Shown piece after piece: positions 2,606 through 39,060 of a stretch of DNA of 43,361 bases; the stretch's first letter is position 1; the number at the start of each line of letters is the position of its first letter. The notes under the pieces are model-generated. The model ran no database searches. It was not told the origin of the DNA and was given only the letters and a program-made list of their open reading frames with translations. The stretch comes from Pseudovirgaria hyperparasitica (lineage: Eukaryota > Ascomycota > Dothideomycetes > Acrospermales > Acrospermaceae): the NCBI RefSeq assembly GCF_010093815.1, contig NW_022985574.1, positions 5,467-48,827 of the forward strand. Reading direction: 5' to 3'. Made by a program: the position numbers and the translations under genes.

Positions 2606-2622
2606 TCTAAGTTATCTTATAA
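2606..2622. repeat. LINE1 target-site duplication, left copy
   Basis: TCTAAGTTATCTTATAA occurs here and, identically, at 15298-15314, bracketing LINE1. The unoccupied site survives once in the opposite arm at 39748-39764 (reverse complement, one mismatch). A 17-bp duplication is typical of APE-type LINE insertion. Confidence 0.9.
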
Positions 2623-2862
2623 TAATAATAATAATAATAATATTATATAACTAGGTAGAGTAGTACTCTATAGGCCTATACCTCCTCTAGTCTAAGCCAC
2701 TATATAAGAAGAAACCCTATAGGGAAAAACTTCCTTATATCTATAACTATATCTCGTTAAACCTCTATTTTATCTTAAGTATATAGCTATAGGGTACGCC
2801 TATTAGCCTATAGCCTATATTACTATTATTTTACCCTTAGGTAGTACGTATAGATACGGAGG

Positions 2863-2893
2863 TTATTAGTTAAGGGCTGCCCTCGACTAATAA
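2863..2893. repeat. 31-bp palindrome in LINE1 3' UTR
   Basis: Arms TTATTAGTTAAGGGC and its near-reverse-complement around a one-base centre. The identical motif with perfect 15-bp arms lies in LINE2 at 22561-22591, and a third copy near the LINE 5' end at 15028-15058. It is about 240 bp from the 3' end, the same distance as the 5' copy is from the 5' end. Confidence 0.85.
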
Positions 2894-2959
2894 TCGGGGT
2901 TCTCCCGGGGTTCTTCCGGTATATATCGGGTTACTACCGGCGTATACCGGGTCTCTTCT

Positions 2960-5900
2960 AGTATATATTTCTAGATCTACTAGTACTAGAGGAGTAGTAG
3001 ATATATAAGTATCTATTAGGAGACGTCCTTAGAGTACTTATTAAGCTATTATACGATATCTAAAGTCTTTATAATATAGATAAGCTATTACTATTATATA
3101 TAGAGGTTAGGGTATATAGCTAGATAGTAGCGTATTATACCTCTACGGCTATACGCCTTATACTATAGAGAGGTATTAGGAACGCCTCTCTTATAGATAT
3201 AGTATAGAAGTTCTATAGCGTCTATTCGGGCTTAGATAAGTATAGATACTTAGGCTTTCGTTAGCCCTTTATATATCTATTTACTTAGTTCCTTCTATAG
3301 CCCTTAAATCTACTCTAGATATCTATTCTACTAGGAGGTCTAGTAGGTATAGAGTGTCTCTTTCTACTTATCTTAAGTCTACGACTATATATTTTTTATA
3401 AGTTCTTAAAGGCTCTACTAGTCTAGAAGAGCGTCCGGGTTATCTTAGACTTCTTATACTACTTAGCTAGAGTTAGCTTCTATTAAGCATCTATACCGTA
3501 TTTAATTCCGGCCTATATATAGAAGTATATAGTAATATATACTAATTCGCGCGCGTAGCGCGGCGAAAGTATATTCTATATTTTCTATACGTTCCTATAC
3601 TTATTATTTAGTAAAGTATACTACCCTCTATATCTAGTAGAAGTTATATATACTTATAACGTCTATCTCGCGTTATAGTAGTACCGTATTAGTAGCTTTA
3701 TATACGTCTAATATAAGACGGAGTATATAGTTCTATATAGATTTAAGCTTTATTCGCCTAGTCTATATAAGGGCTGTATACTAGTACTTATATCCGTACG
3801 TGAAGGCGGGTCGTGCTATAGATATATATAGCTAGCGTGTCTTATTCTAGGCGGTTCCCTACGTGGAGGCTATAATCTATTATATAGTAGCTTCTACCTA
3901 GAGGGCCCTAGAGATAGTATATACTACTTATAGTCCCTATTTAAGCTTACTATCTAGTATAACTCCGAGCGCGTGTATGCTTTATACTAGTAGTTTATTA
4001 AATACGTTAATTTAGGGGCGTTATTCGCCTTCCCTAGTTATCTATTTCTCTTAACGATTAATAAAGTATATAAGCTAGTATTTCTCCGGGGCGAACTTTA
4101 CTCTATAGCGTTTTACCTACTAGAGGCACCTCTCGTGGTCCTATTCTAGTTATCTATATATTTAGTTAGTATTATTATTAATAGCTAGGAGGTATATATT
4201 ATTAGCGTATCCGACTATCTCTATATACTTTATTTCTTAAAGAAGGTCTACCGTAAAGAAGAGGAATAGGATTAGAGAGATAGTACTCCCTTATAGGATG
4301 CCGTATACCATCTCTTTATATTTACTCTAGTACCTAGAGATATATATCTAAGTTATTCTTCCTATAAGGAATAACTATATAAAGTATATAATCTATTCTA
4401 GTATTCGTCTTATCTAGAGATTATAAATAAGTCTTATATAGTTTACCTTATTAAACGCTCCGGCTATATCGAGGGAGAGAAGCAATACTACCCGTCCCTA
4501 TTTCTATACAGCCTAGACAACTTTAATAATATATTAGATAGCTATTATTAGGGAGCTATCTACCTTTACCTTCTAGTTCGGAGGGAGGAGATTATATTCC
4601 TATACCGCGGTACTTATCTTCTTCGCTATTATAGTCTCTAGTATCTTACCTAGGTAGAAGAGAAGGGCGATTAGTCTCTATCCCTTTAGGGAGTTAGGGC
4701 TCTTTCCTAGTTTCGGGAGTATAATAGTATAGACGACTTAGAAGCTCTAGGGGTAGTACCCCTACGTGACGCATGCTTAGAATATATAAGTAATAAGTAG
4801 TAGGGTTGCTTTTATAGTACTTTTTAGGTATTAATTTAGAATTCTATCTAGTCTAGGTACTTTATTATTTAGGAGTATCTTAATAATATTAAGTATATTC
4901 TCCTCCGTAACTTCTTCGGGGATATCTACCACGTATAGATATTTAGCGCCGTGAACGTCTAATAGGTCTACTAGTTCTAGGAGAGGGAATATAGCCTTCT
5001 ATAGAGCCTTAGTTTTCTTAAGGCCCGTGGAGTATATTCTCCCCTAATATATTAGGGGAGGTATAAGTAGTAGGGGTGTCGGAGTATCTACGCCCTTAGT
5101 CTATTTCGCTATACGCTATAGCCCTATTACGTATCATATCTATTAACTAGTAATTATACGCTACTATTTACGCCTTTTGTTATAGAGAACTTTATCGCGT
5201 TATTATATTACTTCCTTCTATTCTTTCTACGACTCGGGTATTCTTATATAGTATACGTGTCTATATAGCCTTTAGGCGTCTTATCTACTTTCCTATACTC
5301 GAGGAATCCCCTTTACTTCTAGGGGCCGGTATATTTAGTATAGTACGTGTTTATTTCTCGTATTCTAGTATATTTATAGGAGTATCTATACGGCCTAGTC
5401 TATGGCTAGGTTATTAGATATATCGACTATAGAGGGATCTAGGATCGCCGATTCTAGGTCCTTTAGATACTTTTTCTAGTCGGTGTCCTTCTATATCTAT
5501 CGTCCCTATTATTTATTCGGGGTATATATATTTATTATAGTTTCTATATATTTATAGTCGGAATCCGTCTATACCTAGCCTAGGCGGTAGTATTAGATCT
5601 AGTAACTAATATACTCCGTAGTAAAGATAAGGTTAAGCGTAGACCCGTCTTTATTCTATTTATGTTTTTTCTATATAACTTATTCTATAGGTGTAAGTAG
5701 ATATAGGAAGTCATGGTAGCGGGTACGTAGTTCCCTTACTCTAAGTTCTTCCCTAACTACGGCTAGACCTCTCTACTATCGGTGGTAGAGGTTAAAGTCT
5801 CCTAGAAGGATATATTACCCTAGTTCTATAGTACCCTCGAGCATCTTCTCTAGTATATGTATATATTATTAGTTATATATGTTATATATATATAGGGGGC

Positions 5901-6342: not shown

Positions 6343-7512
6343 GGTGTTATAAAGGAAGGGCTCGTGGTAGGTGTTATATTCTATAACTATCTCGCGCCTC
6401 TCGCTTTTATCGTATGAATATATTCTATGACCTATTTATATTTTATATACGTTAATAACCATAATAGGTGTTTCCTATTATAGTTTAAATACTATACTAT
6501 ATCCCTGTTTCTTAGTCCGTCTCCTCGCGGTTTATAAGGGTACTTCTAGATAGCGTGGTCTCTACGGTACTATCCGTACTTAGTCTTCTATAAGTATCTT
6601 TATATAGTGTATCTATACCCTTAATAGTTAAAGTACTATATTATTACCTATGCCCTATTCTATAGCTCGGCCATAAGGAGCTCTCCTTCTATTAGGAATC
6701 CCTTCTATATAATATATTATACGAGGGCGGGGTCTCGGAGCTCTATAATTATAGTAGAGTGTTTTTTTACCGTTATCTTAATCGCCTATAGGTTCTTCTA
6801 CCACGCTTTTATAATCTTAATCCCTAGGTATTTTCGCGTGTTAGATTATTCTATACGCGTAATATCCTCTACTCCGATAGCCTATCCCTATATAAATACT
6901 ATATATACTATAATTAGGTATATAGCTACCCTAATAGACGCGCCGGGGAAGATACTATCTATTATATTTAGATCTCGCGAGATGTTTTACTATATAGTAT
7001 TCGTTATAGTAGTAAGTACTACCCTATCTAGTGTAACTTTAGTAGCCACGACGCTTAACTATATTCCTTTCTATTTATTAATCTTATTTATAATTTCCTT
7101 TAGGGATGTCTATTAGACCTACGCTAGCGTGTCCTTATCCTAGATTACGACACGTATACTATATACTCTATCTATGGTCCTAGTAGTCCTTAGTATAGTA
7201 GCTCCGGGTATTACTATAATCTAAGCCTACGTGTTAGGGCGCTTATCTTAGAATAGCTCTTCCTAGATTCTCCGTAGGCTGGCTTCTATTTAGTTAAGTC
7301 TACTACTAGGTTCCTCTCGTAGTAACTTCCTTTCTTTCTCTATAATTTCTCTTAGGTTCCGGATAAGGTCCTAGAATATATAAAGGAGAGTCTTCTTTCC
7401 CTCCTCGGCGTCCCTCTCTATATGTATTACCTAGTATTTAATTTTATCTAGGAGGGTCTCCCCTCTTAGGGTCCCCTCGGTCTAGGTTATCTATAGTACT
7501 TTATACCCTTAG
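6343..7512 (-). pseudogene. LINE1 ORF1: gag-like RNA-binding protein (main part)
   Basis: Minus-strand frame with a helical, charged N-terminal region (for example EIIEKERKLLREEP), then a segment resembling gag domains of fungal LINEs (TIIIELRDPALVQYII), and then cysteine/histidine-knuckle remnants at about 6508-6645, where cysteines appear as tyrosine (YFNYQGYRYTIQRYLQKTKY). The protein would coat the LINE RNA. The 5' part of the ORF lies beyond G0 (14896 to about 15027). Start codon not established: an ATG at 15026-15024 is in a different frame from the conserved block. The plus-strand open frame at 6838-7116 is its shadow. Confidence 0.75.
7508..7512. repeat. G0 target-site duplication, left copy (CTTAG)
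   Basis: CTTAG precedes the 5' LTR and recurs at 14896-14900 directly after the 3' LTR. The 5-bp length is normal for a Ty3/Gypsy integrase. Confidence 0.93.
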
Positions 7513-7740
7513 TGTTAGGACTTAGCCTTAGGTAGGACTCGACCTGCACGTACCTTAGCTAACAGGGTTAGGAGGTGACGTGAAGGGCGGTAAACAGTCA
7601 CGTGCTAGATAGATCGGCGTCCCTTTGTGTATATACTCTCGGATTCCTACCGAAAGGGTTCGGTAGTAATTCGTTCTGTAATAGAATACACCCCATTATT
7701 CCATCTGGCTACACTACTATCTAATAACCCTATTCTTACA
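7513..7740 (+). repeat. G0 5' LTR (228 bp)
   Basis: Starts TGTTAGGACTTAGCC and ends TATTCTTACA. It contains TGACGTGA (7576-7583) and CACGTG (7599-7604), motifs that resemble CRE and E-box sites; a TATA-like element at 7630-7635; and, about 32 bp further on, the inferred transcription start at 7662. It is nearly identical to 14668-14895. Confidence 0.95.
7630..7662 (+). promoter_or_regulatory. G0 LTR TATA element and inferred transcription start
   Basis: TATATA at 7630-7635 lies at normal distance from 7662, the first base of the 12-mer complementary to the primer site. In self-priming elements the primer is the 5' end of the element's own RNA, which would place the start at or close to 7662. 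The start is inferred from this, not measured. Confidence 0.55.
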
Positions 7741-7742
7741 TT

Positions 7743-7754
7743 CGAATTACTACC
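7743..7754 (+). promoter_or_regulatory. self-primed primer-binding site
   Basis: CGAATTACTACC begins two bases after the LTR and is the exact reverse complement of GGTAGTAATTCG at 7662-7673 within the LTR. No tRNA-type TGG start is present. This arrangement matches the Tf1/sushi mechanism, in which the RNA 5' end folds back to prime its own reverse transcription. Confidence 0.75.
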
Positions 7755-7774
7755 CATATAGTACTATAGTCAAG

Positions 7775-9175
7775 ATGGTCTAACCAGAACTAAGAAGGTC
7801 GACACGATCCACTATAGGGACAAGTAACACTGCATTAAACAACAGGGATCCTCCACAATCGGCATCAAATCCGGCCGTTCTTGATAGAGAAGTGGAGATA
7901 TCCGACCGAATCACGGAACTTTCTAATGAGGAAATAGTGGATACACTAAGCGACTTCCCACGATAGGAAGCTAGACAACGAGTCGTGGCAGAGCTACACG
8001 AGGAATCGCAACCATCAATCGCCGAACTATAGGAGCATATCGCCAATCAAGCCCGAGAGATATAAATCCTTAAAGAATAGACCGAACGTGCGAAACTCCT
8101 TATAAAACGACGAGAACTTAACGAGTCTCTTAAAAGACTACGCGGAACGACAGTAGGTAGACGACTTCCTACACCAATTCAGGCGGAATCAGTTCACCTA
8201 CCATTAGAGTTACGACAATCCACCGTACACCCGGCCGCTTCGTTGCCGATTTACCCTGCTCCTTCCTTAGGTGTGCCGAAACCTAAAGATCCGACCATAT
8301 TTATAGGGAAGAACCAAAAGGAGTGGAAAGATTGGAAGAGAGACTGCGAGAAGTACTTCCTCGACAACCCTATGCTCTTTTCTATCGAAGTATAACGTAT
8401 TTCATTCGGAGAACGTTACTTAGGTTTATAATCCCACGATCAATAGGATAGACAGAAGGAAGTCAAGCCACTATCGGCGACAACCTAGGAACATTTAGCT
8501 ATATTTATGCTAAATACCCTCGGAACTAACGGAGAACGCGAAAGAAAGGCACTATCTAAGTTAAGAAGCGTGGCACAACGACCGAACTAGACACCTACTT
8601 AACTACTATAATACCTATAAAACCTCTAGGATAATATCCCTACACTATAGGAAAATATTCGCATATTCTAGTTTCGCGAAGCACTACTCCCGTTAATCCG
8701 CGAAAGATTAGGAATAGTATTATTAAGTTTTAACCATCTACACGAATTAGAGGAGAAAGCTAATAAATACTACCGCATCCTTAAGGAACGCGGCTCTCTA
8801 GGTAAAACCGACGAACCCCACACGGGTTAGAAACGAGGTCGATCGAATACGTTCGATCAAGAGCAACCTTACCGCGATTAACGCTAGAAGAGCGTAAATC
8901 GGGGTAGAAACGCGTCAAGAGGACACCAAAACAATCGAGGCGGTGGTTCCCAACGCGGAAAAGGACAAGGCATAGGCTTAAATGTAACGCCTGTCGCAAA
9001 ACAGCAGGACCATAGCGCACTTTATTACTATAAGTATAGAGAAAAGGGACATATTTCGCCTAACTACAAGAATCCGAAAAAAGAATAGGCTAGTACGCGA
9101 GACCTAACCGCGTTCTTAGCTAAATCACATATACTTAGGAGGAGCCGCAGCGCCTTCCGGCGAGTAAAGACCTAA
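7775..9175 (+). pseudogene. gag: G0 gag
   Basis: Frame opened by the ATG at 7775 and running about 466 codons. It holds a charged, probably coiled region (roughly residues 60-135), a capsid-type block around FIGKNQKEWKDWKRDCEKYF (about residues 185-205), a basic Arg/Gly/Asn-rich stretch, and one CCHC zinc knuckle near codon 417. All three knuckle cysteines now read tyrosine (codons 9026, 9035 and 9065), each explained by TG-to-TA. In-frame TAG/TAA sit where Gln is expected. There is no frameshift, and the zinc knuckle is destroyed. Pol follows in the -1 frame. Minus-strand open frames at 7780-8046 and 8781-9020 are shadows. Confidence 0.9.
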
Positions 9176-12100
9176 TATTACTAAAAGTATCGTTACCCAT
9201 AGCAAATGGCAATAAAACTATACAGGCCCTCGTGGACACTAGTGTAGAAGATAACTATATTTCGTCGATTCTCGCTAAGGAGTGTAGATTATCGTACGAT
9301 CTCGGTAAAGTTAGCCGAACCATCGCAGTTAATGGATATAAAGTTAGAACTTTGGGTAAAACTACAACGAATTACGAAGTTCATGACTTAAAGACAATAA
9401 AACAGTAGATGTCTAATAAATTCATCGTGGCTAATATTAGCTAATAGAATATGATTCTAGGGATGCCTTAGCTTAAACGCCTAAACCCAATCCTCGATTT
9501 TTAGAAGGAGACATTAACGTTCCGTCGACATCGCGGTAAATTATACTAGTAAGTCGCAACCATTAGTAAGGAGGCATGGAACCTCGCCGTGCGGACCCGA
9601 TCGTCGCTAGTCTACCTTATATCCCTATCGATCGTCGACGAAGACGAAGAGGATAGTAACAATCGGGGCAAAGACACGCTACCCGACGTATATTCGTAGT
9701 ACACGGATGTGTTTTCGGCAGGGGACGCGTCACTTCTCCCCGACTATGGGCCGTATAAGCTAAAGATCGAGCTCGAAGAGGGAGTAGACATCTCTTATAG
9801 TCCACTTTACCCACTTTTGAGACTAGAACTCGAAGTTCTTCGTAAATATATCGAAGAATATCTCGGAAGAGGCTAGATACGTCGTAGTACGTTATTAGCC
9901 GGCGCACCTATTCTCTTCGTGAAGAAGAAAGACGGAAGTTTACGTCTATGCGTCGACTATCGAGTACTAAATACGGTGACTAAGAAGAATCGTCACCCAT
10001 TGCCGTTAGTTAGTGAATCTTTAGACTAATTAACGAAGGCAAAGTACTTTACGAAGCTAGATTTGCGAGATGTATATTACCGGCTTCGAATCCGTCGCGG
10101 AGATGAGTAGAAAACTACATTTCGGACCAGATATGGTCATTTTAAGTACACTATTATACCGTTTAGGCTAACAAATGCGCCAGGAGCGTTCTAAGGATAC
10201 ATTAATACTATACTTATAGGATTACTTAATGTGATCTACGTAGTTTACCTCGATAATATACTAATTTACTCCGATAGTATGTAGGATCACGAAGAACACG
10301 TGAAATCGGTGCTAAATCGTTTAAGATAGTATAAACTCTACGCAAAGTTGTCTAAATGTAAGTTTTACTAATAAGAAGTTAGGTTTCTCGGCTTTATTAT
10401 AACACACGGCGGCCTCAAAATGGAGCTAGAGCGTGTTAAGACCATTATGGAATGGCCAGAATCTACTACTATACGTTAAATTAGGACGTTCATAGGTTTC
10501 GTGAACTATTATCGTAAATTCATTATAGGTTTCTTACGAATTACGGCGCCGCTTAATAAACTCATAGAGAATGGCGGTAAAATCCCTATAGGTGGGCGAG
10601 CATAGCGTAAAGCTAAGTCGGTCGAGATATAGTTAACGCCGGAAGCGCGAGATACGTTCCGATCGTTAAAGAATTGCTTTATAACTACGCCGATTCTTAG
10701 GCATTTCGATCCCGAGAAGCATATTCAGGTCAAAACAGACGCATCTAGATTCGCAATTACTGGAATTATTAGTTAACCGTATAAAGATGCGAAAGACAAG
10801 GTATAATAGCACCCGGTCGCCTTCTTTTCCCGTAAAATGGCGGATATAGAGACGCGTTATGATACGCACGACCAGGAACTACTCGCAATTATTGAGAGTT
10901 TCAAGCAATGGCGACATTATTTAGAAGGCTCCGCATATTAGATTGAATTATTATCGGATCACGTAAATCTACGTTACTTCATGTCGACCAAGGTCCTTAA
11001 TCGCCAATAAGTACGTTGGGCTAAGTAGATATTAATATTTGACTTTAAAATCTCACACAAAGCTAGAAGAGAGAATAAAGTAGATCCTCTATCACGGCGT
11101 GAAGATTACGAGAAATCGTCGTAGAATGACGCAGATAGTCGGTGTAATTTAGACTATGCTATACTATAGACACTAAAAGACTAGTTATCTAATAGAGTGC
11201 CGGAAGCCAGGACACTTTCGGCGACTCTCTGCGGGAATTAGAGCGGGCATCAAGTAATCCAAACTAACGTTCAAGAAACAGAGCAAATCCTCGAAGACTT
11301 AATTAAATCTACCTAGAATTCCGATGTATTGGCAAAGAAAGTCATAAGCATGAAGGGAATGGCTATAGAACCGCCGTGGTTATTAAGGTAGGAACGACGA
11401 TCGGACGCGATCTACTTCCAAGGCCGACTCTACGTGCCGGAAGGCGGCTTACGAATCGATATTTTAAGGGAATAGCACGATTACGCGTTAGTAGGGCACT
11501 TCGGCGTTATAAGGACGGTCGATTTAATCCGAAGGACGTACGACTGGCCAGGTCTTCATAAATATATGAAAGACTACGTAAAAACGTGTGACGTTTACCA
11601 GTATACGAAAGTGTATAGATACTTACCATATGGCGAATTAAGGCCATTACCTATGCTAAAGGAAGCATGGAAGGAATTGTCGATGGATTTCATCATAGAT
11701 CTGCCCCTAAGTGAGTATCTTAGGCATGTTTATAATAGTTTACTTGTAGTTTTGGATAGATTTACGAAGATGTCACACTACATCCCTATGAGGAAGACGA
11801 TCCAAGCACCGGATCTTATAGATATACTACTTCGTAACGTAGTTCGGCTCTATAATATACCAAATGGCATAGTTTCGGATAGAGGTCCGTAGATAACGTC
11901 TAAGTTTTAGAAGGATTTCTACTATACACTAGGAATTAAGCGGAAACTTAGCACCGCGTTCCACCCATAAACAGATAGGTAGATAGAGCAGTAGAATTAG
12001 ATAGTTAAGGCGTATTTACGCGCATATTACAACTATAAGCAAGATAACTAGGCAAGGTTAGTCTATGTCGCGGAATTCGCGTATAATAACAGCCGACATG

Positions 12101-13128
12101 CGTTAACCCACGTAAGTCCGTTCGAAGCAAACTTCGGTCGAAACCATAAAGCGCAGTTCATGGGAACTTAGTATAAATCAGAGTAGCCTAACGTCAAGGC
12201 GACGGAGATTATAATAGAACTGTTCCAAACGCAAAGAAGCGTTGCAAAGTTATTACAAGATGCTATAGATTATAGCAAATCGCACCATGATAAGGGCAGA
12301 AAGCCCATAATCTTTAATATTAGAGATAAAGTTTTACTAAATAGCAAAAATATTCGTAGTATCAGGCCGAAGAAGAAGCTTAACTACACGATGATAGGTC
12401 CATTTAAGGTTACTCGTGTAATCAATGACCAGGCGTATAAGTTAAAACTCCCTCCTACGTTAAAGATATATAATATATTCCACATTACGCTTCTCGAGCC
12501 ATTCCATGCCTTATCGTTACTAGATCGTTCCGAATAGACATTATATAAAGTAGTTACGTAAGGAGGTGCGGATATCTACGAAGTTAAGTAGATACTAGGC
12601 TAATAACGTGCCGAAGATGGCACGTGGCTATATAAAATTCGTTAGAAAGGGTATAATCCTAACGAAGATACTTGGGAACCCGTAATATACATTAGTAAAG
12701 CAGCGATATTAGCGTATAAGTAGCGATTAGCAAAGGAAGCCGCGGAATCATAGAGAATTATACTAAAGTACGGCGATTCGACGTTTTTTAGTATAGTTCG
12801 GCGCCGAGGACGGCCGCCTAAAAGGAAGAAGGTGAAAGAGATATAGATCTTTAAAACATTCCAAGGAATTAAGGAACTTCCTTAGAAAGTTTAAACTTAG
12901 AACTTTAAAAAATTAACTGAAAAAGAGACTTAGAAAAATGATTCACTAAGAGAAATGGACATCGAAAATCGGTGCCGATCGGTATAGATCGGTATAGATC
13001 ACGAAAGAGATTAAAGAAGTTATTATTAAAGAAAGATGAAATTAAGGAAGCTGAAAGAAAATCCGAAGATCTATACAGATCTATATAAACTCGCACTAAT
13101 CTATCTAGAAGAAGCAAGATCGCTTTAA
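9172..13128 (+). pseudogene. pol: G0 pol: protease, RT, RNase H, integrase, chromodomain, AT-hook
   Basis: One frame, -1 relative to gag, open but for RIP-type stops over about 1300 codons. Protease: ALVDT at 9226-9240, with DTG changed to DTS. Reverse transcriptase: [20 protein letters not shown] from about 9904; YLDD is YLDN (Asp to Asn at 10255). RNase H: KTDAS with Asp at 10738. Integrase: a CDVC knuckle with the second Cys now Tyr, and an intact catalytic triad Asp 11686, Asp 11878, Glu 11986 (DX35E). Chromodomain about 12571-12700 (YEVKQILG ... GYNPNEDTWEP), then AT-hook RRRGRPPKRKK (12799-12834). The exact C-terminus is uncertain because TAA at 13126 could be a former CAA. The stop-free pieces at 11566-11892 belong to this frame. 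Confidence 0.92.
12799..12834 (+). other. AT-hook-like motif in the integrase tail
   Basis: In pol frame the codons read RRRGRPPKRKKV. The RGRP core flanked by basic residues is the classical AT-hook for minor-groove binding of AT-rich DNA. It lies about 35 residues after the chromodomain. Function is inferred from the motif. Confidence 0.6.
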
Positions 13129-13471
13129 AATTAAAACCAAAAAAACTAAAACGCCAGATAAAAGAGACATGTTAGCACCGATCGGTATAGATCCAAACCG
13201 ATTAAGTCGGAGCAGGAGTAGAAGTACTAATCACCGCGATGGTTACATCTAATTCCTTCCGCTAGTTCTTGTTTAGTATAGTATAGAGCTTCATGACATA
13301 AGTCTCTAGCCTTTCGTTCCGACGCTATAAACTCTATATAGCGCGCCTTATAGCTATAAACTCCTCTATAGAAACCTACGGAGCGGCGGAACCCGGGACG
13401 GAGAGGGACGGACCGGCGCGGGCACGCTAAGAATTATATAAATCAGCGAAAAGATTTAACGATCGGTATAG
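12977..13471. repeat. scattered GATCGGTATAG repeats and GC-rich patch
   Basis: GATCGGTATAGATC occurs twice in tandem overlap at 12977-13000 and again at 13180-13193, with a partial copy at 13461-13471. Two imperfect copies of GCTATAAACTCTATA sit near 13324 and 13352. A strikingly GC-rich patch lies at about 13376-13428. The stretch covers the pol C-terminus, the gap after pol and the end of the antisense gene, so it may form 3'-end signals for both convergent units. The small minus-strand open frame at 12905-13117 shows no coding character. Confidence 0.55.
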
Positions 13472-14096
13472 AACCATATACCGTTAGTGTAGAAACTTCC
13501 AGATCAGAGCTATCTTCCCTAAATTTACAGCTCTTTAGCACGCGCGAGGAAGGAACCTTGGCCTTTTTACTAGAACCTTTTCTAGGAATTTTAACATCGC
13601 CGGTATGTAGAAAGAAGTCCGAAGTGGTAGAGATTTTAGCACTGTTATAGAGATTAATACATATTAGTAAGAATCTATGACGATTTAAGAAAAACGATGT
13701 TACCTAGTAATCGCGGTAATAACAGCTATAGTAGATTCCGATAAACCCTTACGGATCTTATTAGAATCGTACTCCTAGGCGTAACCCTTACCTTAGGTAT
13801 ATAGCTCGTAGAAAGCCTTCTCTAAGGCGTTGCGATCGGTGGTACCACGCTCCTTATCGGTAGGGGTCACTAGAGGCCTAGTAGTAATCTATACTAATAT
13901 AAGTAAATCTACGTAAAGTTCTTTAAACTTGCTTAAATACCTATAAGCAATAACGCTTCTTAGTTATACAAGTGCCGTATATCATAGATTTAGCACCGCC
14001 GTGAGTAATGTATGATAGAAAGCGATAACCACAATAATATATAGCTAGATTATTAGAGCCCGGCCTAGGTCGGGGCAGATCGATGGCTTTCGACAT
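13443..14096 (-). CDS. antisense spliced gene of G0 (three exons, about 179 aa)
   Basis: I read a minus-strand gene between pol and the 3' LTR. Exon 1: 14096-13941 (ATG at 14096). Intron 1: 13940-13889 (52 bp). Exon 2: 13888-13704. Intron 2: 13703-13642 (62 bp, GTAACA, branch-like TTACTAATA, AACAG). Exon 3: 13641-13443, stop TGA. Splicing joins the three frames exactly (156, 185 and 199 nt; total 540). Exon 3 has no internal stop; the others have only TAG/TAA at probable Gln codons. Peptides include PTDKERGTTDRNALEKAFYE and TSDFFLHTGDVKIPRKGSSK; the C-terminus is basic and Ser-rich. I do not recognise the family and see no membrane segment. Exons 2-3 are well supported, exon 1 less so. It converges on pol. 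Confidence 0.6.
13642..13703 (-). other. intron 2 of the antisense gene
   Basis: GT-AG on the minus strand, 62 bp, donor GTAACA after exon end ACTAG, branch-point-like CTAAT about 20 bases before acceptor AACAG. Without its removal the frames of exons 2 and 3 do not match; with it they join in phase (AG|T, Ser). Confidence 0.7.
13889..13940 (-). other. intron 1 of the antisense gene
   Basis: GT-AG on the minus strand, 52 bp, donor GTATTT following TAG (probably former CAG) and acceptor TATAG (probably former CAG). The branch site is unclear. It joins exon 1 to exon 2 in phase 0. Confidence 0.45.
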
Positions 14097-14651
14097 ATCG
14101 GTAACGTATATAAGACAGGGATTATTCGAAGGCGCCTGTTTCCGCGCCGATTACTTTAGAGTATCGAGATTTCGGGAAACCATATTACGATTATTATTAA
14201 TTTATGCAGATTATTACGAATTATGTTATTACTAGCTAAGGACGGCACGAAAATTAGTAAATTACGTAAATCGCACTAAATAGTAGTAAATCTATATAAA
14301 TCTATGTCTATAAGGATCGGGTAATATACCTAATAATCTAAAAAACTCTATAAAGAGTTAAGAAGTTTTTTGAAGAAAGGAATATTTCTAAGAAAAGATT
14401 TTAATATAGGCAGTACCCGGGCTTACCTAATCACATTACGTGATACGCTAGGCCTAATTAGGTAATCTCACCTATATAAGAAGTTAAGATGGACAAAATC
14501 TAGTTTATTAGGAAAACGCTTGTGTGAATCTTAGATCGGCGAATATCGGCAAGTATCTAAGACGAAGCGTGGAGAACGACTAAGGTCTTACGAGACTTAG
14601 GATAGGGATATAGGGATAGGTGATAATCTAGGTCGCTAAGGGCAGCTTCCT
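14097..14651. other. non-coding segment before the 3' polypurine tract
   Basis: No reading frame was recognised. It holds an inverted pair TTACCTAAT (14423-14431) / ATTAGGTAA (14457-14465), followed by CTATATAAG near 14472 that could be a plus-strand TATA box, and a hairpin CTTAGAT/ATCTAAG near 14531-14562. It probably includes the promoter of the antisense gene. Confidence 0.4.
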
Positions 14652-14666
14652 AGAGGGAAGGGATAA
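14652..14666 (+). promoter_or_regulatory. G0 polypurine tract
   Basis: AGAGGGAAGGGATAA, purine-rich (one T), ends one base before the 3' LTR. It would be the plus-strand primer for cDNA synthesis. Confidence 0.75.
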
Positions 14667-14667
14667 T

Positions 14668-14895
14668 TATTAGGACTTAGCCTTAGGCAGGACTCGACCT
14701 ATACGTACCTTAGCTAATAGGGTCAGGAGGTGACGTGAAGGGCGGTAAACAGTCACGTGCTAGACAGATCGGCGTCCCTTTATGTATATACTCTCGGATT
14801 CCTACCGAAAGGGTTCGGTAGTAATTCGTTCTATGATAGAATACACCCCATTGTTCCATCTGGCTACACTACTATCCAATAACCCTATTCTTACA
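14668..14895 (+). repeat. G0 3' LTR (228 bp)
   Basis: Same length as the 5' LTR. Starts TATTAGGACTTAG (TG to TA) and ends TATTCTTACA. Differences from the 5' LTR are mainly C/T and G/A. Followed by the target-site duplication CTTAG at 14896-14900. Confidence 0.95.
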
Positions 14896-15297
14896 CTTAG
14901 TTAGTTTCTATATTTTAGATAGGTATCTAGCTATCTATATTAATATTACTATATAGCCGTTTCTACTGTACTAGTAGGGGTATATCCGGCGTCTACCGGG
15001 GTATTACGATACCTAAGGCCGCCATGGTTATTAATTAAGGGTAGCCCTTAACTAATAAAAGGGGGTCGGCGTGTTAGCGTTTATTAGATATAGTCTATAC
15101 TTATATTATCGGAGAGTCTTCGAGCGTATATATATAGTATCTCTATACGTCGGTATCGTCGTGTATTATACGCTATACGTACGTATATATGTCGGAGGTT
15201 GTTATACTTAGTATACTCTATCGTTTGATGTATGTAAATCGCTGTTTTACCCCGAATTAACTAGTTTAGTCCGTTAGGGTGTGAGAAGTAAGTTTCT
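14896..15297 (-). mobile_element. LINE1 5' end: start of ORF1 and 5' UTR
   Basis: Continuation of LINE1 beyond G0. The ORF1 frame continues from 14901 to about 15027. A palindrome (15028-15058) separates it from an approximately 240-bp leader (15059-15297). No promoter motif is certain; the leader is richer in CG than its surroundings. Confidence 0.75.
15028..15058. repeat. 31-bp palindrome near LINE1 5' end
   Basis: Same palindrome as in the LINE 3' UTR (2863-2893 and 22561-22591) with two RIP-type differences. It lies 239 bp from the element's 5' end, between leader and ORF1. Confidence 0.8.
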
Positions 15298-15314: not shown

Positions 15315-15785
15315 GAGAGTATATATTCTATTCTAGATTATTCTAGATTATTCTAGATCTTATTAGCTAACTTTAGATCTAGTTACTCTACTCTAGTATA
15401 TAGTTCTTCTTCTACTAGGCTCTAGTTAATTAGATAGCTACTCTAGAGAATAAGGTATCTAACCTCTACTACTATATTATCTATCTAGATTAGTTAGTTT
15501 ACTCTAAAGAGAAGAATAAGATAAAGAAGTAGCTCTATAGTTCTATTTACTAGGGTTTCTATATAGTATATATTAGCTCTATCTATCTAGTTTCTATCTA
15601 TTTTAGTCCTTTTTAGACTATTTAGATATCTATCTATTAGTTTTCTAGTAATTTAATTCTTAACTTAATAATATTATATATACTCTTATTTATTCTATAA
15701 CTATTAAATTCTAGGTTCTAATTTCCTTTAAGTTACTTAAGTATAGGTATTATATATAAATTAGTTTATCTCTCTAAATTATATT

Positions 15786-15831
15786 AGAGCACCCGAACTA
15801 GTAGCCTAGTGGTTATTAGTTCGGGTACTCT
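15786..15831. repeat. 15-bp-arm hairpin
   Basis: AGAGCACCCGAACTA pairs with TAGTTCGGGTACTCT (one mismatch) around a 16-base loop. The mirror copy is at 39243-39288. Its high GC content stands out in saturated AT DNA. Confidence 0.8.
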
Positions 15832-15884
15832 AACCTTTTATATTATATATCACGAGTTTAATTCCGTAGTAGGGTACCTTTTTA
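15801..15884 (+). ncRNA. possible tRNA-related relic
   Basis: TAGCCTAGTGG resembles a pol III A box. About 52 bases on, CGAGTTTAATTCCG resembles a B box, and GGGTACC then TTTTT could be an acceptor end and terminator. I could not fold a proper cloverleaf: T-stem pairing fails and the 5' acceptor does not match. The mirror copy (about 39190-39275) keeps the arrangement with more decay. It could be a tRNA-derived repeat or chance. Confidence 0.25.
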
Positions 15885-15999
15885 GTTTCTTAGTTCTATA
15901 TTCTTCTTATATATAATAGTCTATATAAGTCTATTCTAGACTTTTCTATATTATTCTATTATAATATATTATATTATATATCTATAATAGTTATTTATG

Positions 16000-18900
16000 T
16001 TTTCTTTATATTTAGTAACTATATATTACTTAAATTATAGAGCTATGTTATAGAGTTTTCCTAGTATATATTTAAGATTTATAATTTAATACTTTATTCT
16101 CTATAGTATCTTTCTTCTTTTTATAATAGCTCTAATAGTACTAGGTTTATAGTAGTAATGTATTATTCTATAACCTCTATTTATATATAGATATTACGGT
16201 ACTTAAGATATATACTATAGGTTCCTAGGTATTCTTATTCTTAGTATAGTTCTTCTAGTAGATTTAATACTTCTAGATACTATTCTTATTAAGTCTATAT
16301 TTAATAATATAGTCTACTTTATATATATCTAGTCTATCTTAGAGTATAATAGAGTATAATTATATATTTATATAATTATATATATTAGATTAAAACCTTT
16401 TAAGTAATAAGATATAGAATATATTATAGACTTTTATATCGTTTTCTAGGTTAAGCTTATAGACTCTTATACTAATATAATATTTAATTTAGAAGGAACT
16501 AGCTATTTTATAATTAAGCTTTTTATTTACTTATAATATTTATATATTATAGATATTAAGAAGGACTTTATCTTTCTTCTTATATATTTAATCTTTAACT
16601 AATCTATTATAGTACTTTATATATAACTTATTTACTTACTAGATTATTATATAATAGTTATATATAGTTTTAAAGATTTCAATTACTAGTTTCTATATAT
16701 AGACGTTAATATCTATTATTTGGTTAAACTAGACTATATAAGATTTAAAACCTATCCTTAGACTATATTCTAGGTTCGCCTAGAAGAGTATAATATCTAT
16801 TATACTATAATAACTATTATTATATATAAATTCTACTATACTTAGTAGAGAGGCCTAGTTATCTTATTTAAAATTATAGAATATATAAAGATAGGCCTTA
16901 AGTATTTAGTTCTATTATTCTATCTAACTATCTATTTATAGATAGAATACTATTAATATATTTCTATTTATACTAGCTATTTTATAGAATAATATCTAGA
17001 ATTTAGATATAAATATACTTCCTTAGTCTATAATAATTCTTTTTAGTATACTATAGACCTTAATAATCTTATTCTAGAATACTTATACTAGTTCTTTTAA
17101 TATAATTATCTTCTATATAGAGATATATCTAGATATCTTTATAAGTCTACCTATAATAATAAGAATTAAATTATAACTTATTCTAAGTATCTTACTTAGA
17201 GATAAGTTAACTATAAAATCTATAATAATATCTTTCTATATAAAGAAAGGGACTAGTAGAGGCTATAAATTCCTATATAGCTTATATCTAGGTATCTTTA
17301 TTCTTTAATAAATTAGATAAGTAGCTATCTATTCTTTAATATACTTAGATATATCTTTCTAAAAGTAGTACTAATAAATTAAGCTTAGGGTATATATATA
17401 TCTAAAATATTCTACTAGGTTAGTATTATAGTATTAGCTTACTATATTAAATTATATATTATCTATTAGTATATTATACTTTCTATTATAGTAAAGTAAG
17501 CTATCTATAAAGGTCTACTTATAGTCTACTTTAGTCTATAATAATCTATCTTACTATATTTTATATAACTTTAAAACTATTAGATCTATCTTTTATAAAT
17601 CTATAATTAATTAGATGAGGTCTACTTAATATATATACTAGATACTATCGCCCTCTCTAATAGCGCTAATAAATAGCTTACTAGAGACTTTAGTACTATA
17701 TCTTTAGTTACTAGCTTTAGTCTTATAAATTTAATTACTAGTATTAGTATTAGTATCTTACTAATTATTAGATAACTTATTATCTAATCTTATTCTTAAG
17801 AGTTAGGTCTATAGCTACTCTAGAATTCTATAGCTACTATAATTCTAGGCGCCTTCTTTATAGTTAGATCTTCTTAATATTCTATTAGCTAGATTTATAC
17901 TTCTATATTAATAGTAGATTATATAGTAGAAATTTATAAGCTACTTAGTCTATTAAACCTATTAATAATTTAAAACTATTATACTTATAAACTCCTTTAA
18001 GTTATAGTAATTAGTTAGTAACTTAATATTATATATAGTATCTTTAAGATAATATTACTACTACTTAAATAACTCTACTATTACTAGTAGCTCTTAGTTA
18101 TAAATAGTATATCTAGTCTTAAAATTATCTATCTTATATAAGAAGAATATAACTAGATACTATTAGATCTTTTTAGACTCTATTAGTCTAGACTAGAAGA
18201 GTATATCTAAGATTATAAATTCTAATATATTAGTTTTAATATAAATAGATTTAGTTAGATTAAAGTATACTAGTAATAGAGCGGTTATAAATATCTCTTT
18301 AATCTTCTTAAAGGATATTCTTTTAACCTCTATTAATTTAATAGATTATAACTTAATATTATACTATTTCTATCTACTATAGACTATAATAGATAAATTA
18401 GTAGTAGTAGTATATATATTAAGTAGTATAGCTAAATAGAAGAAGTATTTAATAAATTTTTAATAGTAGTTAGTAAAGCTAATAAAGATATATATATCTT
18501 AAATAGATTTTAGTTTAGGCTAGTCTATAATAGTAGTAACTCTATCTCTCTCTATAGTTATACCTTAGTTAATAATAATAAAGCTAAGGAAGTTAATATA
18601 GTTCTAATAGAACTTATATTTAGATAGCTTAATATATATCTTATACTTTTCTAGTCTATCTAGAACTATATATATATACTAGATATACTTCTTCTTATTA
18701 TCTAAGAAGATAAGAATATTATCTAGATATATAATATATATTATATTAAGTAGATCTACTAGTAAATTATTAATATATACTTAAAAGGTATCTAGCGTGT
18801 TAGTTAATCTAAAAGAGACTATAGTATACTTTAAGTATCTATAATAGATTCTAAAGGCCGTTTTCTATTTATTACCCTTCTTAATATAAAGGCAATAGTA

Positions 18901-22301: not shown

Positions 22302-22317
22302 TATCTATCTAGTATAA
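22302..22317. repeat. LINE2 target-site duplication, left copy
   Basis: TATCTATCTAGTATAA here and at 25417-25432. Confidence 0.9.
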
Positions 22318-22560
22318 TAATAATAATAATAATAATAATATTATATAACTAGGTAGAGTAGTACTCTATAGGCCTATGCCTCCTCTAGTCTAAGCTACTA
22401 TATAAGAAGAAACCCTATAGGGAAAAACTTCCTTATATCTATAACTACATCTCATTAAACCTCTATTTCGTCTTAAGTATATAGCTATAGGGTACGCCTA
22501 TTAGTCTATAGCCTATATTACCGTTATTTTACCCTTAGGTAGTACGTATAGGTGCGGAGG

Positions 22561-22591
22561 TTATTAGTTAAGGGCTGCCCTTAACTAATAA
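22561..22591. repeat. 31-bp palindrome in LINE2 3' UTR
   Basis: Perfect 15-bp arms (TTATTAGTTAAGGGC) around a single T; best-preserved copy in the window. Confidence 0.9.
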
Positions 22592-22639
22592 TCGGGGTTC
22601 TCCTAGGGTTCTTCCGGTATATATCGGGTTACTACCAGC

Positions 22640-25416
22640 GTATACCGGGTCTCTTCTAGTATATATTTCTAGGTCTACTAGTACTAGAGGAGTAGTAGAT
22701 ATATAAGTATCTATTAGGAGACGTCCTTAGGGTACTTATTAAGCCATTATACGATATCTAAAGTCTTCGTAACATGAATAAGCTATTACCGTTATATATA
22801 GAGGTTAGGGTATATAGCTAGATAGTAGCGTATTATACCTCTCCGGCTATATACCTTATACTATAGGGAGGTATCGGGAACGCCTCTCTTATAGATATAG
22901 TATAGGAGTCCTATAGCGCCCGTTCGGGCTTAGATAAGTATAGANNNNNNNNNNNNNNNNNNNNNNNNNNNNNNNNNNNNNNNNNNNNNNNNNNNNNNNN
23001 NNNNNNNNNNNNNNNNNNNNNNNNNAGGTCTAGTAGGTATAGAGTGTCTCTTTCTACTTATCTTAAGTCCACGACCGTATATTTTTTATAAGTTCTTAAA
23101 GGCTCTACTAGTCTAGGAGAGCGTCTAGGTTATCTTAGACTTCTTATACTACTTAGCTAGAGTCGGCTTCTATTAAGCACCTATACTATATTTAATTCCG
23201 GCCTATATATAGAAGTGCGTGGTAATATATACTAATTTATATACGTAGCGCGGCGAAAGTATATTCTACGTTTTCTATACGTTTCTATACTTTTTATTTA
23301 GTAAAGTATACTACCCTCTATATCTAGTAGAAGTTATATATACTTATAACATCTATCTCGCGTCGTAGTATTACCGTGTTAGTAGCTTTATATACGCCTA
23401 ATATAAGACGGAGTATGCGGTTCTATATGGATTCGAGCTTTATTTACCTAGTCTATATAAGGGCCGTATACTAGTACTCGTGTCCGTATATAAAGGCGGG
23501 TCGTGCTATAGATATATATAGCTAGCGTGCCTTATCCCGGGCGGTTCCCTATATAGAGGCTATAATCTATTATATAGCGGCTTCTACCTAGAGGGCCCTA
23601 GAGACGGCGTATACCACTTATAGTCCCTATTTAAGCTTGCTATCTAGTATAACTCCGAGCGTGCGCATGCTTTATACTAGTAGTTCGTTAAATACGTCGA
23701 TTCGGGGGCGTCGTTCGCCTTCCCTAGTTACCTATTTCCCTTAACGATTAATAAAGTATATAAGCTAGTATTTCTCCGGGGCGAACTTTATTCTATAGCG
23801 TTTTACCTACTAGAGGCACCTCTTATAGTCCTATTCTAGTCGTCTATACGTTCGGTTAGTATTATTATTAATAGCTAGGAGGTATATATTATCGGCGTAT
23901 CTAACTACCTCTATATACTTTATTCCTTAAAGAAGGTCTACTATAAAGAAGAGGAATAGAATCGGAGAGATAGTACTCCCTTATGGGATGCCGTATACCG
24001 TCTCTTTATATTTACTCTAGTATCTAGAGATATATATCTAAGTTATTCTTCCTATAAGGAATGACTATATAAAGCGTATAATCCATTCTAGTATTTATCT
24101 TATCTGGAGGTTATAAATAAGTCTTATATGGTTTACCTTATTAAACGCTCCGGCTATATCGAGGGAGAGGAGCGATACTATCCGTCCCTATTTCTATACG
24201 GCCTAGACGACTTTAATAATATATTAGATAGCTATTATTAGGGAGCTATCTATCTTTACCTTCTAGTTCGGAGGGAGGAGATTATATTTCTATACTACGG
24301 TACTTATCTTCTTCGCTATCATAGCCTCTAGTATCTTACCTAGGTAGAAGAGAAGGGTAATTAGTCTCTATCCCTTTAGGGAGTTAGCGCTCTTTTCTAG
24401 TTTCGGGAGTATAATAGTATAGGCGACTTAGAAGCTCTAGGGGTGGTACCCCTACGTAACGCATGCTTAGAATATATAAGTAATAAGCGGTAGGGTCGCT
24501 TTTATAGTACTTTTTAGGTATTAATTTAGAATTCTATCTAGTCCGGGTGCTTTATCATTTAGAAGTATCTTAATAATATTAAGTATATCCTTCTCTATAA
24601 CTTCTTCGGGGATATCTACCGCGTATAGATATTCGGCGCCGTGAATATCTAATAGGTCTACTAGTTCCGGGAGAGGGAATATAGCCTCCCGTAGGGCCTT
24701 AGTTTTCTTAAGGCCTGTGGAGTATATTCTCCCCTAATATATTAGGGGAGGTATAAGTGGCGGGGGTATCGGAGTATCTACGCCCTTAGCCCATTTCGCT
24801 ATACGCTATAGCCCTATTACGTGTTATATCTATTAACTAGTAATTATACGCTACTATTTACGCCTTTCGTTACGGAGGACTTTATCGCGTTATTATATCG
24901 CTTCCTTCTATTCTTTCTACGACTCGGGTGTCCTTATATAGTATACGCGTCTATATAGTCTTTAGGCGTCTTATCTACTTTCCTATACTTAAGGAATCCC
25001 CTTTACTTCCGGGGCCCGGTATATTTAGTATAGTATATATTTATTTCTTATATTCTAGTATATTCATAGGAGTGTCTATACGGCCTAGTCTATGGCTAGG
25101 TCGTTAGATATATCGACTATAGAGGGATCTAGAATCGCCGATTCTAGGTCCTTCAGGTACTTTTCCTAGTTAGTATCCTTCTATATCTATCGTCCCCGTT
25201 ATTTATTCGGGGTATATATATTTATTATAGTTTCTATGCATTCGTGGTCGGAATCCGTCTATACCTGGCCTAGGCGGTAGTATTAGATCCGGTAACTAAT
25301 GTGCTCCGTGGTAAAGGTAAGGTTAAGCGTGGACCCGTCTTCGTCCTATTTATGTTTTTTCTATATAACTTATCCTATAGGTGTGAGTAGGTATAGGAAG
25401 TCGTGGTAGCGGGTGC
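22640..25416 (-). pseudogene. LINE2 ORF2 fragment (partial endonuclease, reverse transcriptase)
   Basis: Same domain order as LINE1 ORF2. The catalytic box at 23888-23902 reads RYADN, so only one Asp is lost here, against both in LINE1. It stops in the endonuclease. Stops are again RIP-type. It contains the assembly gap. Confidence 0.85.
22945..23025. other. assembly gap (81 N)
   Basis: Unknown bases. The matching LINE1 segment (about 3246-3336) is about 91 bp, so the N count is close to, but perhaps not exactly, the true length. Confidence 0.98.
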
Positions 25417-36417: not shown

Positions 36418-36433
36418 GACTAGAAAAGTATAA
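36418..36433. repeat. SINE target-site duplication, right copy
   Basis: GACTAGAAAAGTATAA, identical to 35461-35476. Confidence 0.92.
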
Positions 36434-39060
36434 ATTATATATTAAGCTATCTAAATATAAGTTCTATTAGAATTATATTAATTTCCTTAGCTTTATTATT
36501 ACTAACTAAGGTATAATTATAGAGAAAGATAGAGTTACTACTATTATAGACTAGCCTAAACTAAAATCTATTTAAGATATATATATCTTTATTAGCTTTA
36601 CTAACTACTATTAAAAATTTATTAAATACTTCTTCTATTAAGCCGTACTACTTAATATATATACTACTACTACTAATTTATCTATTATAGTCTATAGTAG
36701 ATAGAAATAGTATAATATTAAGTTATAATCTATTAAATTAATAGAGGTTAAAAGAATATCCTTTAAGAAGATTAAAGAGGTATTTATAACTACTCTATTA
36801 CTAGTATACTTTAATCTAACTAAATCTATTCACATTAAAACTAATATATTAGAATTTATAATCTTAGATATACTCTTCTAGTCTAGACTAATAGAGTCTA
36901 AAAAGATCTAATAGTATCTAGTTATATTCTTCTTATATAAGATAGCTAATTTTAAGACTAGATATACTATTTATAACTAAGAGCTACTAGTAATAGTAGA
37001 GTTATTTAAGTAGTAGTAATATTATCGTAAAGATACTATATATAATATTAAGTTACTAACTAATTACTATAACTTAAAGAGGTTTATAAGTATAATAGTT
37101 TTAAATTATTAATAGATTTAATAGACTAAGTAGCTTATAAATTTCTACTTTATAATCTACTATTAATCTAGAAGTATAAATCTAGCTAATAGTATATTAA
37201 GAAGATCTAACTATAAGGAAGGCGCCTAGAATTATAGTAGCTATAGAGTTCTAGAGTAGCTATAGATCTAACTCTTAAGAATAAGATTAGATAATAAGTT
37301 ATCTAATAATTAGTAAGATACTAATACTAATACTAGTAATTAAATTTATAAGACTAAAGCTAGTAACTAAAGATATAGTACTAAAGTCTCTAGTAAGCTA
37401 TTTATTAGCGCTATTAGAGAGGATAATAGTATCTAGTATATATATTAAGTAGATCCTATCTAGTTATTTATAGATCTATAAAAGATAGATCTAATAGTTT
37501 TAAAGTTATATAAAATATAGTAAGATAGATTATTATAGACTAAAGTAGACTATAAGTAGATCTTTATAGATAGCTTACTTTACTATAATAGAAAGTACTA
37601 TATACTAATAGATAATATATAATTTACTATAGTTAGCTAATACTATAATACTAACCTAGTAGAATATTTTAGGTATATATATACCCTAAGCTTAATTTAT
37701 TAGTACTATTTTTAGAAAGATATACCTAAGTATATTAAAGAATATATAGCTACTTATCTCATTTATTAAAGAATAAAGATACCTAGATATAAGCTATATA
37801 GGAATTTATAGCCTCTACTAGTCCCTTTCTTTATATAGAAAGATATTATTATAGATTTTATAGTTAACTTATCTCTAAGTAAGATACTTAGAATAAGTTA
37901 TAATTTAATTCTTATTATTATAGGTAGACTTATAAAGATATCTAGATATATCTCTATATAGAAGATAATTATATTAAAAGAACTAGTATAAGTATTCTAG
38001 AATAAGATTATTAAGGTCTATAGTATACTAAAAAGAATTATTATAGACTAAGGAAGTATATTTATATCTAAATTCTAGATATTATTCTATAAAATAGCTA
38101 GTATAAATAGAAATATATTAATAGTATTCTATCTATAAATAGATAGTTAGATAGAATAATAGAACTAAATACTTAAGGCCTATCTTTATATATTCTATAA
38201 TTTTAAATAAGATAACTAGGCCTCTCTACTAAGTATAGTAGAATTTATATATAATAATAGTTATTATAGTATAATAGATATTATACTCTTCTAGGCGAAC
38301 CTAGAATATAGTCTAAGGATAGGTTTTAAATCTTATATAGTCTAGTTTAACCAAATAATAGATATTAACGTCTATATATAGAAACTAGTAATTGAAATCT
38401 TTAAAACTATATATAACTATTATATAATAATCTAGTAAGTAAATAAGTTATATATAAAGTACTATAATAGATTAGTTAAAGATTAAATATATAAGAAGAA
38501 AGATAAAGTCCTTCTTAATATCTATAATATATAAATATTATAAGTAAATAAAAAGCTTAATTATAAAATAGCTAGTTCCTTCTAAATTAAATATTATATT
38601 AGTATAAGAGTCTATAAGCTTAACCTAGAAAACGATATAAAAGTCTATAATATATTCTATATCTTATTACTTAAAAGGTTTTAATCTAATATATATAATT
38701 ATATAAATATATAATTATACTCTATTATACTCTAAGATAGACTAGATATATATAAAGTAGACTATATTATTGAATATAGACTTAATAAGAATAGTATCTA
38801 GAAGTATTAAATCTACTAGAAGAACTATACTAAGAATAAGAATACCTAGAAATCTATAGTATATATCTGAAGTACTATAATATCTATATATAAATAGAGG
38901 TTATAGAATAATACGTTACTATTATAAACCTAGTACTATTAGAGCTATTATAAAAAAAAGAAGAATACTATAGAGAATAAAGTATTAAATTATAAATCTT
39001 AAATATATACTAGGAAAACTCTATAAGATAGACCTATAATTTAAGTAATATATAGTTACT
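36434..39060 (+). pseudogene. pol: G1 pol, right-arm copy, second part (RT thumb, RNase H, integrase, chromodomain)
   Basis: Continues the frame after the SINE: KLSKYKFY...FLSFIITNQG, RNase H with TDAS changed to TNIL (Asn at 36843) and YDQELL to YNQELL. Integrase keeps Asp 37854, Asp 38046 and Glu 38154 (DX35E), followed by ILKAYLYIFYNFKQDNQA. Chromodomain about 38747-38875 (YKVDYIIEYRLNKNSIQKY ... NTQKSIVYI). The frame is readable apart from TAG/TAA at Gln/Trp sites. Near-exact mirror of 16000-18640. Confidence 0.85.

Follow-up and report, generated by a model that had tools for sequence, protein, structure and literature searches.

A probable antisense gene with three introns, now dead, between pol and the 3' long terminal repeat of a fungal Ty3/gypsy chromovirus

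Does a long terminal repeat (LTR) retrotransposon of the fungus Pseudovirgaria hyperparasitica carry a gene running against its own gag and pol, and can such a gene still be recognised once repeat-induced point mutation (RIP) has filled it with stop codons? The question is raised by a Ty3/gypsy chromovirus of 7.4 kb at positions 7513-14895 of the stretch analysed here (the window; 43,361 nt of contig NW_022985574.1), which has 1.9 kb between the end of pol (near 12750) and the 3' LTR. An antisense, intron-bearing protein-coding gene in this interval, now dead, is the best explanation of what we found, and we regard it as probable. Judged from the DNA, the gene probably had about 240 codons in four exons separated by three introns, and lay on the minus strand from approximately 14096 (or 14183) to 13202 (Table 1).

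A preliminary description, made from the window copy, had proposed a three-exon antisense gene of 179 codons. Its three pieces (14096-13941, 13888-13704 and 13641-13443, minus strand) do join in phase over GT-AG segments of 52 and 62 nt, and the joined frame contains three stops in the window copy, all TAA or TAG, with none in exon 3. For comparison, copies of the element were taken from the same genome (35.0 Mb, 59 contigs), giving 83 mapped copies of which 71 span the antisense stretch; exon 3 is free of stops in these as well. The spliced coding frame itself was supported by the purine/pyrimidine (R/Y) rhythm of its codons, by the stops of the 71 copies and by splice signals, while two of its proposed boundaries, at intron 1 and at the 3' end, were not. 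The second intron stood as drawn, including its CTAAT motif. Intron 1 as first drawn is poor, with a GTATTT donor and no CTRAY branch site. A GTAAGT donor at 13932, absent from the window copy, fits better and leaves the downstream frame unchanged; we prefer the acceptor at 13878 to one at 13845 because AG is present at the former in 71/71 copies and at the latter in about half. The TGA at 13443, taken at first as the end of the gene, probably lies inside a third intron (13481-13427), with a fourth exon continuing beyond it to 13205. This intron has CTRAY at -20 in 70/71 copies and a YAG acceptor in all 71. The donors of introns 1 and 3 agree with the ordinary fungal consensus. In the four-exon model the three introns have phases 2, 2 and 0. 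At the 5' end, ATG is found at 14096 in 32/71 copies, and exon 1 may instead start at an in-frame ATG at 14183, present in 29/71. An alternative fourth exon, read in frame 2 from a donor at 13474, was more open and was rejected, as the rhythm favours frame 1.

The strongest evidence comes from codon rhythm. RIP changes C to T, which appears as G to A on the complementary strand, such that purines remain purines, and the codons of coding sequence tend to begin with a purine and end with a pyrimidine (RNY). The rhythm is thus blind to RIP. Averaged over the 71 copies, the RNY index of the minus strand was best in frame 2 at 14090-13970, in frame 1 at 13880-13700 and in frame 2 again at 13640-13490, and was weak or flat at the two intron junctions first proposed; across the whole flanks (12760-13150 and 14190-14640) it was 0.98-1.01. 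The rhythm fades ahead of the TGA at 13443 and returns patchily beyond it in another frame. For the four-exon model the index was 1.212 (z 4.7; other phases -3.1 and -1.5), with z values of 1.35, 3.37, 2.53 and 1.97 for exons 1 to 4. The three-exon frame was compared with dinucleotide shuffles, the null used for all spliced open reading frame (ORF) and gene-finder tests: its index of 1.239 was reached by 2/1000 of the best spliced ORFs of shuffles, and its position chi-square of 34.7 by 0/1000 shuffles (those for which the statistic could not be computed, at least one in number, were counted as not reaching it) and by none of 3361 placements in which the template was moved by 100 bases or more.

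A similar picture came from a gene finder whose score combined rhythm, stops and splice signals. Intron 3 had already been noticed when it was written, but it received no coordinates as input. It returned introns 2 and 3, the revised donor of intron 1 at 13932 (paired with the 13845 acceptor) and an end at 13205, and it chose intron 2 on the minus strand under all four parameter sets. Its score was reached by 21/1000 shuffles, compared with 469/1000 for the plus strand, 704/1000 for the minus strand of pol and only 89/1000 for the plus strand of pol, which scores weakly because pol has little RNY rhythm. At intron costs of 4, 5 and 6, the corresponding counts on the antisense strand were 1, 11 and 20 of 500 shuffles.

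The rhythm also bears on where the gene came from. Three host kinase exons had RNY indices of 1.16-1.21, compared with 0.98 for the gag and 1.05 for the pol of this element, and purine content was 0.489 in the antisense frame, 0.47-0.50 in the kinase exons and 0.55-0.56 in gag-pol. Capture of a host gene, suggested in the preliminary description, is thus the likelier source, since the rhythm is host-like, although three kinase exons are the whole basis of the host comparison. We propose tentatively, as a possibility and not as the expected outcome, that the chromovirus captured a host gene in antisense orientation, its three introns included, and retained it in an accessory role. A special case of the antisense-gene explanation is that the captured host gene or fragment was real and spliced, and was a passenger with no role in the element. 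The host-like rhythm and purine content and the ordinary donors of introns 1 and 3 suit such a passenger; we nonetheless consider it somewhat doubtful, given the small host sample and the fact that no intact host paralogue was found for exon 2 (no stop-free match in the best 150 of 233 candidates, among which a diverged paralogue could rank lower) or for exon 4 (found at 111 genomic places, all scored and none stop-free).

Stop codons provide a second line of evidence. When a codon was counted as bad if it was a stop in any of the 71 copies, the real strand gave 168 codons if up to three bad codons were allowed and 181 if up to four were, matched by 6/1000 and 10/1000 shuffles, respectively; with 38 copies the counts were 27/1000 and 34/1000. 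The frame of pol itself was not exceptional by this measure (326-564/1000), because many of its codons are of the kind that RIP turns into stops. When only stops shared by all copies were counted and up to 0, 1, 2 and 3 of them were allowed, 328, 147, 7 and 13 of 1000 shuffles matched the real strand. The pol frame, as positive control, was matched by 0/1000 at each threshold; the counts were 766, 555, 423 and 279 for the minus strand of pol, and 20, 78, 252 and 360 for the plus strand of the 3' region. The multi-copy stop signal is therefore present but weaker than that of pol, and is not significant at every threshold. All-copy stops occupied 2/179 codons of the three-exon frame and 7/410 of pol, compared with 2.8-8.4 per 100 in the other frames of the stretch. 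Among 40 copies, none was stop-free in the three-exon frame, which had 2-4 stops per copy; the remaining phases and the sense strand had 8-37. TAG made up 82% (434/531) of the in-frame stops of the antisense frame and 68% (649/959) of those of pol, while each of the two off phases had 33-48%; the stops of exon 4 at its 111 genomic places were also mostly TAG. The stops in the antisense frame thus resemble those that RIP would leave in a coding sequence.

Several observations weigh against a gene, and together they make up the case that the 3' region is non-coding and that the spliced frame arose from a free choice of introns and forgiven stops. For the window copy alone, at least 179 codons with no more than two GT-AG introns and no more than three TAA/TAG stops were obtained in 74/200 shuffles of the same strand; this evidence is therefore not beyond chance, and we dropped the window copy alone as proof. 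Dinucleotide shuffles may miss some RIP structure, and the four-exon model was fitted after the signal had been seen. All-copy thresholds of 0 and 1 were not significant, and one of six flank phases (35-66% TAG) reached 66%. In the flanks, too, the RNY index rose to 1.2 in individual 25-codon windows. Exon 2 supplied most of the chi-square (26.4), and neither exon 1 nor exon 3 was significant by itself (p 0.43 and 0.13), though both lean in the same direction as exon 2 in their R/Y rhythm. With stops ignored, the rhythm was no more than suggestive, being matched by 32/500 shuffles on the minus strand and 45/500 on the plus strand, the latter also scoring because RNY reads alike on both strands. 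At the highest intron cost the gene finder retained intron 2 alone and ended at the 13443 stop. Intron 1 has no CTRAY branch site, and the intron 2 donor (GTAAYA in 59/71 copies) lacks G at +5. Codon usage trained on gag-pol scored the antisense frame at -14.3 and two sense-strand phases higher, at -4.8 and -12.3; we set this model aside as giving the frame no support, gag-pol being purine-rich and a poor model for it.

Protein searches also weigh on this side. The 179-codon product had no homologue at E ≤ 10 among 32 candidates, nor did an alignment of seven copies carrying the superseded frame-2 exon 4 among 2243 candidates. These negatives say little, because the 138-aa integrase of the same element, used as a control, likewise found no match at E ≤ 1e-5. 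Four short GATCGGTATAGA repeats within 12975-13474 further suggest cis-acting DNA in the region. Overall, we consider a non-coding 3' region unlikely: it does not account for the multi-copy stop counts, the rhythm relative to ORF-selected shuffles, the gene-finder result, the coincidence of frame changes with splice sites or the pol-like excess of TAG.

The revised four-exon product was compared with Pfam, PDB and prokaryotic contigs, and exon 4 also with its own genome. No match came from Rfam or from collections of viral, prokaryotic and plasmid sequences, and PDB gave nothing below E 0.7. No basic zipper was matched in Pfam, where the sole match was FTA2 at E 0.1, a test weakened by RIP missense changes. 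A coiled coil in exon 4 was considered and rejected, its heptad contrast being reached by 625/5000 shuffles. A 974-aa open frame (C10) matching exon 3 proved to be an artefact of a run of N; at L042 4800-7464, a long N run adjoining a copy of the element produces false open frames of 900 aa.

The antisense gene is dead in every copy examined. Each of the 71 copies has 6-10 in-frame stops in the four-exon frame. None of the covering copies lacks an intron (0/78, 0/81 and 0/82 for introns 1, 2 and 3). Differences between copies are almost all transitions of the RIP type, so that dN/dS is unusable on them. The few shared transversions by codon position (3/2/0 in the antisense frame, 4/2/5 in pol) show no third-position excess in either and were discarded as a measure of selection, having no power when pol itself gives 4/2/5. 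The mapped copies had no indels in the three exons first proposed, one indel site in intron 2 (three copies) and 22 listings in the flanks; this pattern was also set aside, many flank indels sitting in A/T runs.

If the antisense gene was once active, RNA polymerase II would have transcribed the minus strand from the gene's own promoter or from the 3' LTR, and the spliceosome would have removed introns of 55, 62 and 55 nt, allowing an accessory protein to be made. Introns would persist in new copies because the element copies itself via plus-strand RNA, in which antisense splice signals go unread. RIP has since placed stops in every copy examined, so that the gene would now be a fossil. The argument that antisense orientation preserves introns, made in the preliminary description, is sound in its logic and agrees with the retention in all covering copies, but the same retention would be expected without any gene.

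Two further explanations were considered. The antisense transcript might have acted as RNA, forming a sense-antisense duplex that repressed the element, with the frame incidental; antisense transcription has been suggested as a source for the siRNA control of LTR elements (PMC7264820), but an RNA role predicts neither codon rhythm nor in-phase exon joins, and we consider it very improbable. A lost sense-strand env-like gene as the source of the strand-symmetric rhythm, for which the plus-strand score with stops ignored could be cited, is scarcely credible, as the in-register sense frame has seven all-copy stops in 179 codons vs two antisense, the plus-strand finder with stops counted was matched by 238, 167 and 238 of 500 shuffles at costs 5, 4 and 6, and a gene on the sense strand should have lost its introns.

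Table 1. Features of the chromovirus and of the predicted antisense gene, in window coordinates; counts of copies refer to the 71 copies spanning the antisense stretch.
Feature	Positions	Strand	Basis
Predicted antisense exon 1	13933-14096	-	frame-2 purine rhythm and open frame; z 1.35 alone
Predicted antisense intron 1, revised, 55 nt	13878-13932	-	GTAAGT donor 61/71 copies, ACTAG 71/71
Predicted antisense exon 2	13704-13877	-	frame-1 rhythm 1.32, z 3.4
Predicted antisense intron 2, 62 nt	13642-13703	-	CTAAT branch 26 nt before end in 69/71 copies
Predicted antisense exon 3	13482-13641	-	no stop in 71/71 copies; rhythm 1.25, z 2.5
Predicted antisense intron 3, 55 nt, new here	13427-13481	-	donor GTATGT 17/71 or GTATAT 53/71
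Predicted antisense exon 4, new here	13205-13426	-	frame-1 rhythm 1.16, z 2.0, patchy; stop codon 13204-13202
Target-site duplication CTTAG, 5' side	7508-7512		same 5-mer at 14896-14900
5' LTR, 228 bp	7513-7740	+	TG..CA ends
gag-like frame with stops	7784-9100	+	19 stops vs 21-35 in other five frames; named gag by position
pol frame with stops, -1 to gag	9139-12750	+	reverse transcriptase, RNase H, integrase, chromodomain by Pfam
Polypurine tract	14652-14667	+	AGAGGGAAGGGATAAT adjoining 3' LTR; named by position
3' LTR, 228 bp	14668-14895	+	paired with 5' LTR
Target-site duplication CTTAG, 3' side	14896-14900		same 5-mer at 7508-7512

The assignment of the element to the chromoviruses follows from pol, in which Pfam matched RVT_1 (E 4e-15), RT_RNaseH (2e-27), Integrase_H2C2 (9e-14), SH3_Tf2-1 (5e-18) and Chromo (6e-6) in the order reverse transcriptase, RNase H, integrase, chromodomain; the integrase core (rve) fell under the Pfam cut-off and the others above it. 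A 71-residue piece of the gag-like frame had no match in Pfam. At 9088-9139, the reading frames of gag (2 mod 3) and pol (1 mod 3) point to a -1 relation between the two. The two LTRs differ at 12 positions, all transitions and none a transversion. In the 3' internal region, the 12-mer GATCGGTATAGA, possibly a cis-acting element, starts at 12975, 12985, 13178 and 13459, the last copy lying in the proposed intron 3, and a GC-rich patch at 13371-13430 (CGGAGCGGCGGAACCCGGGACGG...) in the otherwise AT-rich element coincides with the start of the proposed exon 4.

The contig of the window is RIP-ridden and contains other repeats. The stretch 41602-43343 is 76% alike, in inverted orientation, to the pol region 9653-11394 and belongs to a second, more decayed gypsy element. 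Direct copies at 2606-3635 and 22304-23325 (92-94% alike, 19.7 kb apart, adjoining TAA/AAT microsatellite-like runs) could be copies of a LINE-type element, and a third, less alike copy starts near 238. A 3-kb inverted repeat (15626-18656 and 36418-39448, 97% complementary) lies among nested repeats. A tRNA-like stretch at 15785-15860 (TAGCCTAGTGG...TTCGGG...) could be the head of a SINE; ARAGORN found no tRNA in the window.

Antisense genes are uncommon among LTR retroelements, and what they do outside HTLV is described as unclear (PMC7264820). The closest case in kind is brtn, an extra gene antisense to gag-pol in Boty-like Ty3/gypsy elements of Botrytis cinerea (PMC7264820, PMC8365987, PMC4227169, PMC5987419; the paper naming it, Zhao et al. 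2011, is cited in PMC8365987). As here, the element is a fungal chromodomain gypsy element with an antisense gene, placed between pol and the 3' LTR by PMC7264820; three introns are predicted for the present gene. The plant gypsy frames termed aORF-3R (Grande gene23, RIRE2, Retand, PvRetro13) also lie antisense between pol and the 3' LTR, and Grande gene23 has a reported promoter of its own (PMC7264820). Like these, the present minus-strand model (14096-13202), a predicted and broken frame, lies downstream of pol, and the region is present in most family copies (71/83, the copies having been found with the region itself as probe). The plant elements belong to another kingdom, and the word intron is absent from that review (PMC7264820). 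HBZ of HTLV-1 and APH-2 of HTLV-2 are spliced antisense genes that lie in the 3' portion of a retroelement and encode regulatory proteins (PMC2386809, PMC3736048), but are described with one intron, the first exon lying within the 3' LTR, and no basic zipper was matched here. Antisense homing-endonuclease genes in nuclear group I introns likewise combine a mobile element, an antisense gene and a spliceosomal intron roughly 50 nt long (PMC9548176), the element there not being an LTR element and the gene encoding a mobility enzyme.

Antisense genes in retroelements are thus already known, and what would be new is the presence of three introns in the antisense gene of a fungal chromovirus; no fungal LTR element with an intron-bearing antisense gene was found in the literature searched, which is not proof that none is in print. 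If a host gene was captured in antisense, the retained introns would record the direction of capture, since only an antisense gene keeps its introns through an RNA intermediate. A multi-intron fungal case would cleanly test the origin and persistence of such genes. Genes erased by RIP can be detected by combining R/Y codon rhythm with stop statistics over many copies, an approach that could be extended to other RIP-ridden elements with additional genes missed by annotators.
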